From Synergistota bacterium (GTDB lineage Bacteria > Synergistota > GBS-1): a stretch of DNA of 20,931 nucleotides. The DNA is taken from contig JANXBX010000003.1 of assembly GCA_025060595.1 (NCBI GenBank), forward strand, positions 7,992 through 28,922, written 5' to 3'. The position numbers were made by a program, and so were the translations under genes. The notes beneath the pieces were generated by a model. The model had not been told where the DNA came from. It ran no database searches and saw only the letters and a list, made by a program, of their open reading frames with translations. This document shows positions 14,509 to 17,011 of this stretch, one piece after another (the first letter of the stretch is position 1; each line of letters starts with the position of its first letter).

Positions 14509-15381
14509 TTAAAACTTATTAAGTAATGGGAAACCCATATCCTCTCTCTGCCTTATATAAGCCAAGGCGCATTTTCTCGCAAGATTTCTAACCCTAGATA
14601 TATAGTGGGTCCTCTCAGCTACGCTTATAGCCCCTCTCGCATCGAGAAGATTGAAAGTGTGGGAACACTTTAGAACATAGTCATAGGAAGGCAAAACAAG
14701 GCCCTTCTCAATAAGCCTTTCTGATTCCTTTTCATACATTTCAAACAATTTCCTAAGCATATTTACATCAGCCTCATCGAAGTTATAGATAGAGTATTCC
14801 ACTTCTCCTCTATGATGTATATCACCATACGTAACAGATCCCACCCACTTAAGGTCGAAGACTGATTTCACCTTTTGTATAAACATGGCTATCCTTTCTA
14901 TACCATATGTAAGCTCAACAGGTATCGGATCCAAATCTATTCCACCAACCTGCTGAAAGTAAGTAAACTGTGTAATCTCCATACCATCAAGCCATACCTC
15001 CCATCCCATACCCCAAGCACCAAGAGTAGGAGCCTCCCAATCATCCTCAACAAATCTAACATCATGTTCTTTAGGATCGATACCTAAAGCCTCCAGACTC
15101 TTTAAGTAAAGCTCTTGTATATCATCAGGTGCTGGCTTTAATATAACCTGATACTGGTAGTAATGTTGAAGCCTATTAGGATTCTCACCATATCTTCCAT
15201 CCGTTGGACGGCGAGATGGCTCCACATAAGCAACACGCCAGGGCTCTGGCCCCAAAGACCTCAAAGTAGTTGCGGGATTCATGGTCCCCGCTCCAACCTC
15301 AATATCATAAGGTTGTTGAATAACACATCCTTGCTCTGCCCAGAACCTTTCAAGCCTAAATATCAATTCCTGAAAATTCAA
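14509..15381 (-). CDS. glyQ: Glycine-tRNA ligase alpha subunit
   Basis: 290 residues, the catalytic subunit of alpha2 beta2 glycyl-tRNA synthetase (class II, subclass IIC), which activates glycine with [22 protein letters not shown] matches the usual N-terminus, followed by [19 protein letters not shown] and [18 protein letters not shown], which form class II motif regions. The start is a TTG at 15381, 6 bases after AGGAGGTG; the three-residue-longer reading begins with a GTG that is part of that ribosome-binding site. It overlaps recO by 26 bases. Having separate alpha and beta genes, rather than the dimeric GlyRS, fits most bacteria and excludes an archaeal origin. Confidence 0.97.
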
Positions 15382-16087
15382 ATCTAACACCTCCTACTAC
15401 CTTTTCAGAAAGTATCTTTAAATAAAGAGACGCCTCTTTCAAACCCTTCAAGTTATACCTCAGATCTTTAAAGAAAGCTAAGGGCATCTTCTGAATCTCT
15501 CCTAAAAGAGCTATTCCTTCAGCTCCAATTCTTAAACCATTAGCTTCAGAACAACTTCTACATAGAAGAAAGGGACCCTCAACTTTTATGAAAGCCTCTT
15601 TACTTATTTTACCACTACAATAAGAACATGTATCAAGCTTTGGTAAAAATCCTAAAAGGTCGAAGGCTTTTAAGGAGACAACCAATTCTAAGAGCAGAGG
15701 ATCTGACCCTTCTTCAAGTAAATTAAGAAAATCAAGTGTAATGTCAAATAGCTTCGCTTCAGGAGCCTCATAGGGCAGAAGTTTGTTAAGCAGAGAAAAA
15801 AAAGATAAGCTAGATCTTAATCTTTTTAGAGAGCCTCTAACACTCAAGAAGGAATTCTTAACATCAAACTCTTTAAGATAAAAGTTGCTCCCCACAGAGT
15901 AATATATACTCATAAGACCATAATTTAAAGGCTCTATCGCTCCACCAAATCGATTAGGAAGCTTAACGCTACCTGGAGCTATAACAAGGAGCTTCCCTTT
16001 CTCTCGAGTAAAAACAAAGAGAAGTTTATCTAATTTAGATACCTTTCTGTTGAGAATTATAGACTCAACTTTTAGAAAGCGCTCTAT
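15356..16087 (-). CDS. recO: DNA repair protein RecO, start codon uncertain
   Basis: RecO loads RecA at gaps with RecR and RecF. The reading frame from 16087 gives 243 residues, the family's usual length. Its N-terminal OB-fold ([20 protein letters not shown], then [14 protein letters not shown] and GGAIEPL) matches RecO. A helical domain follows, with a zinc motif CSYC...CRSC (Cys154, 157, 176, 179). The problem is the start: from the era stop (16102-16100) to the first ATG at 15913 there is no ATG, GTG, TTG or CTG in frame, and starting at 15913 would remove about 58 conserved residues. The boundary given assumes an ATA start at 16087. Alternatives are a one-base sequencing error in the GGG at 16088-16090, which would make GTG at 16092 the start, or readthrough from era. 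The gene is certain; the start is not. Confidence 0.85.
15388..15395 (-). promoter_or_regulatory. Ribosome-binding site deciding the glyQ start
   Basis: AGGAGGTG on the minus strand within the end of recO. It lies 6 bases before the TTG at 15381 and contains the in-frame GTG of the longer reading, which therefore cannot be the start. Confidence 0.75.
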
Positions 16088-16099
16088 CCCACTATAATA

Positions 16100-17011
16100 T
16101 CACCCTTGGTATTCAGAAAATCCTAACCTCCTAACATCGCTCTCAGAAAGCCTCCAATCCTCCCTGACTTTAACCCATAACTCGAGAAACACTCTCTTAT
16201 TACCCAATATGTGCTCTATCTCCTCCCTTGCCATTTTTCCTATTTTTTTAAGCATGTTTCCTCCCTTACCTATTACTATCTTCCTATGAGATTCTCTCTC
16301 TACATATATAGTAGCCCTTATATAGAATAAGTTTTTACCTTCTCTTTCTTCCATCTCCTCTATTACTACTGCCACCGAATAGGGTATCTCCTGATGAAGT
16401 TCCTCAAATAGTTTTTCCCTTATAACCTCTGCTATCATGAATCTTAAAGGCTGATCTGTAATCATATCCTCAGGATAAAGAAACTCCCCATCAGGGAGGT
16501 TTTGAAAAATCTTCTCAATAAGAACGTCAAGATTCGTTCCCTTAACAGCTGATATAGGTATGATCTCTCTAAAATAAAGCTTATCCTGGTATAGCTCTAC
16601 TACACGCCAAAAGGCCTCTTTATAATCTAATAGATCTATCTTATTGATTAAAAGAAACTTTGGAGTATCCACCTTGCTAAGAATAGATATAATAATTTCA
16701 TCCTCCTGCTTTAACTCACAATCGCTAGCCTCAACTACATACAGTATTAAGTCCACTCCTTCAAGAGCCTCTATGGCTATTTTTACCATCTCCTCACCTA
16801 AAAGATGTTTTGGCTTATGAATGCCAGGCGTATCTACAAAAACTATCTGACCTTCATCCCTTGTTAATATCCCTCTCACTTGAGTTCGAGTAGTTTGAGG
16901 TTTTGGAGAAACTATGGCAACTTTTTTACCAAGAAGGGCATTCATAAGTGTAGATTTTCCAACATTTGGCCTGCCAGCTAATGTAACGAATCCTGCCTTT
17001 TTCCTACTCAT
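16100..17011 (-). CDS. era: GTPase Era
   Basis: 303 residues, the ribosome-assembly GTPase that binds the 3' end of 16S rRNA and helps 30S maturation. GTP-binding motifs are G1 GRPNVGKST (13-21), G3 DTPG (60-63), G4 NKID (123-126) and G5 SAVKG (154-158). The C-terminal KH RNA-binding domain has GKGG at 248-251. Length is normal. The ATG follows only a weak AGGT, 7 bases away, but it lies inside the end of a small upstream ORF with a better ribosome-binding site, so translation may be coupled. Its UGA stop is in the same frame as recO, directly downstream. ybeY in the same run acts on the same rRNA end. Confidence 0.97.
   Translation of the reverse strand: MSRKKAGFVTLAGRPNVGKSTLMNALLGKKVAIVSPKPQTTRTQVRGILTRDEGQIVFVDTPGIHKPKHLLGEEMVKIAIEALEGVDLILYVVEASDCELKQEDEIIISILSKVDTPKFLLINKIDLLDYKEAFWRVVELYQDKLYFREIIPISAVKGTNLDVLIEKIFQNLPDGEFLYPEDMITDQPLRFMIAEVIREKLFEELHQEIPYSVAVVIEEMEEREGKNLFYIRATIYVERESHRKIVIGKGGNMLKKIGKMAREEIEHILGNKRVFLELWVKVREDWRLSESDVRRLGFSEYQG

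Follow-up and report, generated by a model that had tools for sequence, protein, structure and literature searches.

The DNA-repair gene recO in the 20,931-nucleotide stretch of Synergistota DNA analysed here (the window) and mgtE in the same lineage may be expressed by a −1 ribosomal frameshift at the second codon, a reading to which we give an even chance. In both genes, and in three species, a Shine-Dalgarno (SD) sequence precedes a conserved block of GTG or TTG, GGA and TAG, and the coding constraint lies in the −1 frame relative to this block. From this anatomy we infer initiation at the GUG or UUG, the slip itself and a possible regulatory use. The relevant features of the window are:

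16100..17011, minus strand: era, the upstream gene (TIGR00436/NF000908), whose stop TGA at 16102-16100 overlaps the recO SD
16099..16106, minus strand: Shine-Dalgarno sequence AGGGTGAT, which spans the era stop (duplex of −9.9 kcal/mol with the canonical anti-SD)
16090..16092, minus strand: GTG, the proposed out-of-frame initiation codon (TTG in bacterium 42_11), one base off the column that holds ATG/GTG in genomes G003/G002
16087..16089, minus strand: GGA, the proposed slip codon, with the overlapping GGG at 16090-16088; G_GGA is identical in two recO and three mgtE sequences
16084..16086, minus strand: TAG, which closes the two-codon ORF GTG GGA TAG and is identical in all five sequences
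16085..16087, minus strand: ATA, the putative first codon after the −1 slip or a rival start codon, overlapping TAG and conserved in all five sequences
15356..16090, minus strand: recO reading frame, 245 amino acids if M-G is followed by the 243 codons from ATA (TIGR00613, PF11967, PF02565)
15914..16087, minus strand: region encoding the RecO N-terminal part (OB-fold) before the first ATG (dN 0.18 and dS 1.86 compared with 42_11)

The last codons of era on the minus strand are GGG TGA, and its frame stays open to the recO stop codon at 15358-15356. As the preliminary description had pointed out, none of the 62 codons upstream of the first ATG of recO (15913-15911) is ATG, GTG, TTG or CTG. These four codons make up 5.05% of the codon usage in this genome, from which the chance of such a run is approximately 4%; taken alone, their absence is mildly unusual. 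RecO_N and TIGR00613 profile matches extend across the stretch upstream of the ATG, and together with the low dN and high dS of codons 16087 to 15914 they argue decisively that it is truly coding and under strong purifying selection. The residues E-R-F-L (16084-16073) differ from those of 42_11 by synonymous changes only and, therefore, translation of recO must start at or before 16084. A CTG or TTG start at the L of this motif was rejected because the upstream E-R-F is conserved in this way, and a start at the downstream ATG was rejected because the RecO_N domain would be lost. The product matches the RecO equivalog TIGR00613 with 78.7 bits (cut-off 48.7, E 4.2e-22) and PF11967 and PF02565 above the gathering score, and the matches of era to its profiles are far over the cut-off. 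A comparison with solved RecO structures gave no sequence match. When 1.81 Mb of this genome were scanned with a codon model, recO was among 26 ORFs with at least 12 coding-like codons preceding the first start.

RecO is present in each of the four family genomes, namely the window's genome (G000), bacterium 42_11 (G001), G002 and G003. The class holds only four genomes, of which just 42_11 belongs to the same genus as the window's genome; a contig search for further RecO relatives returned only the two known family members (42_11 and GBS-1, the latter corresponding to G003) and distant RecO proteins. A gap-free alignment anchored at the era stop reads TAT TAT AGT GGG ATA GAG CGC TTT after this stop in the window and CCT TGT ATT GGG ATA GAA CGG TTC in 42_11, and the corresponding stretches of G003 and G002 read GGG GAA ATG GTT TTC GAT AGG TTT and GTG AGC AGG AAA CGC TTC, respectively. 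Thus, the column with the in-frame ATG or GTG start of G003 and G002 is occupied in the genus by AGT (window) or ATT (42_11). One base past it lies GTG or TTG, respectively, the frame of which continues with GGA TAG; recO is in the −1 frame. The codons between the era UGA and GGG have diverged (TAT TAT AGT versus CCT TGT ATT); the block itself is identical at eight of nine positions, the difference being the G or T of the start codon. Since two separate assemblies whose RecO proteins are only 55% identical share this arrangement, the comparison indicates that the off-by-one start is not a sequencing error.

The spacing of the SD was measured as the aligned distance from the end of the AGGAGG equivalent. 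Duplex energies rest on an assumed canonical anti-SD sequence, as the 16S rRNA is absent from the assembly; on this basis, the SD of 42_11 recO, AGGGGTGA, has −11.0 kcal/mol. A canonical start with an SD was found for 1252 of 1616 genes of this genome, with a spacing peak at 8–9 nt. The out-of-frame start codon of recO is located 10 nt from the SD in both species (GTG 16092 in the window, TTG in 42_11), and ATA (16087 in the window) 15 nt.

Searching the four genomes for GGTGA-N-DTGGGATAG yielded four matches: both recO genes, the interior of a rubredoxin gene and the start of a magnesium-transporter gene of 42_11, which is MgtE by Pfam. This block, preceded by a conserved SD, likewise opens the mgtE orthologues of G003 and the window's genome, and the three starts read AAAGGAGTGAGGATA GTG GGA TAG, AAAGGAGTGAAGCCG GTG GGA TAG and AAAGGGGTGATTTTA GTG GGA TAG. 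In each case mgtE lies in the −1 frame relative to GTG GGA TAG, with an SD of −10.4 to −13.8 kcal/mol at a spacing of 8 nt to GTG and 13 nt to ATA. Between species, the five-base spacer from SD to GTG is identical at only 0–2 positions, compared with nine of nine for GTGGGATAG, and these nine bases are exactly start codon, GGA and UAG. The chance of the GTGGG conservation was roughly estimated at 1e-6 to 6e-4, assuming a neutral identity of 0.35–0.55. Because an AUA start does not need GTGGG, this conservation counts for the slip. Among 93 DTGGGATAG sites examined in part of the genome stretches, only recO and mgtE fit at gene starts, and the remaining sites belong to ordinary ATG or TTG genes or to coding interiors. 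Conservation is poor at residues 3–10 of MgtE, past the block, and further downstream in the gene of this genome an in-frame ATG follows a moderate SD (−7.9), so that mgtE may start elsewhere. An in-frame GTG after the ATA of 42_11 mgtE was ruled out, the codon being GTA. No Rfam element was detected at recO or mgtE at the gathering score.

Near-cognate start codons are used elsewhere in the lineage. In none of the four family genomes does the gene of a GntR-type regulator (G000 C1:55133, minus strand; L220, L221, L222, L223) start with NTG; the codons are ATA, ATT, ATT and ATC, mostly behind a good SD. The queA gene (G000 C3:123274, minus strand; L228, L229, L230, L231) starts with ATT, ATA and ATT in three genomes and has an in-frame GTG upstream in G002. 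By this comparison, AUA as such appears to be an acceptable start in the family at normal SD spacing. The idea of an AUA start in recO is therefore more plausible a priori, but these starts leave the conserved GTGGG and the 13–15 nt spacing of the recO and mgtE AUA unaccounted for.

For several other late-start ORFs from the codon-model scan, CTG or ATT is a plausible start, with a good SD before it. CTG apparently serves in leuC-, GntR regulator-, M20 peptidase-, iscU/nifU- and hisB-like genes (in this order G000 C3:56874, C6:127059, C10:51590, C12:6532 and C16:11738, all minus strand). An FtsW/RodA-like gene (G000 C4:49208, minus strand) has no canonical start near its SD, and ACG or ATT may be used; as its sequence is AGC GGT ATT, it was excluded as a carrier of GTGGGATAA. 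A tally of near-cognate codons across genes without a canonical SD start was too noisy for use. In the window, the listed GTG start of glyQ (15379-15390, minus strand) falls within the SD AGGAGGTG, and the TTG three codons further on (15381-15379) is the likelier start.

According to the proposed −1 slip, the ribosome would bind the SD at the era end, initiate out of frame, at GUG in the window and UUG in the sister species, and decode GGA as second codon, which would place UAG in the A site. Ahead of termination by release factor 1, the peptidyl-tRNA-Gly would move back by one base from GGA onto the overlapping GGG, whose first G is the last base of the start codon. Reading would then resume with AUA GAG CGC UUU to give fM-G-I-E-R-F-RecO, a product of the same length as the M-V-F-D-R-F start of the relatives. 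At that point the initiation SD would lie approximately 13 nt from the codon in the P site, and it may aid the slip by pulling on the mRNA. Ribosomes that do not slip would release fM-G, and hence the output of RecO would be low and set by the slip versus release factor 1.

Several observations fit this scheme. Start, GGA and TAG in one frame and coding sequence in the −1 frame are conserved together in the two recO and three mgtE sequences that carry the block and form the comparative basis, and in all five the slip codon can re-pair at −1, from G_GGA to GGG. When the start codon ends in G, full re-pairing after a −1 slip is possible only if the second codon is GGN, as is the conserved GGA. 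A tRNA-Gly(UCC) gene is present beside those for GCC and CCC. The SD lies approximately 11–13 nt (aligned) from GGA and may thus act as a stimulator, but it is needed for initiation in any case; SD sequences 9–14 nt upstream stimulate −1 shifts, and in an IS element a single SD serves both initiation and frameshifting (PMC5009743). Against the scheme, no conserved downstream structure was found in the recO and mgtE sequences, with a z-score of −2.0 for recO of the window and values near 0 for the others. In an E. coli assay of codons entering the A site, with no stop codon behind, G_GGA was likewise absent from the shift-prone tetramers (PMC4066793).

The preliminary description had offered three explanations, an AUA start at 16087, readthrough of the era UGA and a one-base error in the GGG at 16088-16090; frameshifting and termination-reinitiation at GTG GGA TAG go beyond these. 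Termination-reinitiation is the closest rival to the slip, although we regard it as rather unlikely. Here GTG GGA TAG would be a two-codon upstream ORF, and ribosomes stopping at UAG would restart at the overlapping AUA to give Met-Glu-Arg-Phe. This would account for the conserved SD-placed KTG, for ATAG and for the overlap, AUAG resembling the common AUGA. In E. coli, ribosomes that start out of frame beside a stop reach the correct frame at an overlapping GUG through termination-reinitiation that depends on release factors (PMC9841429), and the AUA, AUU and AUC starts of the family (the GntR gene in four of four genomes, queA in three of four) favour a restart at AUA. However, we found no precedent for reinitiation at this codon. 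Moreover, reinitiation has no need of the second-codon GG, which is kept in five of five sequences and is common to unrelated genes; its conservation within genes has a probability by chance of about 0.002–0.03. Third comes direct initiation at the AUA, with GTG GGA TAG incidental, which we consider improbable. The AUA is kept in the two recO and the three mgtE genes, AUA and AUU starts are used in the family at normal SD spacing, and a low level of initiation at AUA has been inferred from E. coli constructs (PMC4066793), so that the earlier suggestion gains in so far as the codon itself is concerned. Yet the AUA is 15, 15, 13, 13 and 13 nt from the SD in the two recO and three mgtE sequences, compared with the canonical mode of 8–9 nt and approximately 8–10 nt for the other AUH starts of the family, and GTGGG ahead of it is conserved although nothing would constrain it.

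The in-frame ATT of 42_11 recO, at a spacing of 9 nt, counts against the slip. The sister species might start at this AUU, an accepted start in the family that aligns gap-free with the ATG/GTG column of the relatives; a recent change of ATT to AGT would then have nearly silenced recO in the window or left it with a weak AUA start, the likeness to mgtE being coincidental. This is very unlikely, as the recO frame shows no decay here and the mgtE codon equivalent to ATT is AGT, AGT and GGT in the three genomes, with the same KTGGGATAG block. The two remaining explanations are hardly credible. Readthrough of UGA would yield an Era-RecO fusion, and era and recO do share one frame in three genomes; however, in G003 the era UGA is directly followed by ATG, the codons from UGA to GGG are not conserved, and mgtE carries the same block without an era-like in-frame partner upstream. 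As for a G missing from GGG, one added G would restore GTG GGG ATA GAG CGC with the length found in the relatives. The preliminary description was thus right about the place, since GTG 16092 lies one base off their ATG/GTG column, but the error itself is contradicted by the same arrangement in the separate assembly of 42_11 and by its repetition at mgtE in three genomes. An in-frame ATG or GTG in relatives had been named as a sign of an error or a recent mutation; it occurs in G003 and G002, and 42_11, the same-genus genome, is without it and shares the off-by-one start.

Across this genome, SD-placed starts in a −1 relation to their gene are followed by GGA or GGG in 5 of 22 cases, in comparison with 49 of 1090 normal starts (p 0.003; the −1 set is small, includes recO and was examined after the motif was known). 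For starts in a +1 relation the count is 0 of 18. In proC-, lysX/rimK- and cheX-like genes (G000 C13:56459, C6:114994 and C9:23770, respectively, all minus strand; names judged by eye from the translations) the best SD faces an out-of-frame ATG or TTG followed by GGA or GGG, with the gene in the −1 frame, and these are possible further cases. A search for proC in relatives gave weak matches only. Somewhat more tentatively than for recO and mgtE themselves, we suggest that an SD followed by KUG GGA UAG could be a start-site recoding signal, acting by a −1 slip at codon 2 and used by unrelated genes of this uncultured lineage (recO, mgtE and perhaps the proC-, cheX- and RimK/LysX-like genes), with the output set by slip versus release factor 1 just after initiation.

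If the proposed slip is real, frameshifting would take place at codon 2, straight after initiation, in two housekeeping genes, and one SD could set the start and also reset the frame. This would be a compact means of keeping genes at low, release-factor-dependent levels and would account for genes of a kind that annotation pipelines cut short or overlook. Independently of recO, the conserved AUA, AUU and AUC starts make the family useful for the study of relaxed start selection.

No description of codon-2 frameshifting was found in the literature that could be searched, and the scheme shares single elements with several known systems. Rare AUU and AUA starts of the infC type have counterparts in the GntR gene and queA of this family, which lie at normal SD spacing, unlike the AUA of recO and mgtE. 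The ambiguous starts AUGUGA and GUGUGA of E. coli likewise place an out-of-frame start beside a stop, the overlapping start giving the frame (PMC9841429), but in these cases a canonical GUG serves as the second start, whereas a restart in recO would need AUA. The RF2 gene prfB also combines an early stop in a housekeeping gene, a change of frame in competition with a release factor and a nearby SD; its shift is +1 at UGA around codon 26, in contrast to −1 at UAG, codon 3, in recO, and RecO is no release factor. Programmed −1 frameshifting in dnaX and IS911 similarly depends on re-pairing of tRNA on an overlapping codon with an SD upstream, while the recO slip would occur at codon 2, with a single P-site tRNA facing a stop and without a conserved downstream structure. 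In phage T4 gene 60 the take-off codon is likewise GGA, with UAG directly behind (PMC5009743), but the ribosome hops over approximately 50 nt in a process that depends on stem loops and a nascent peptide, whereas in recO we propose a backward slip of a single nucleotide onto GGG.
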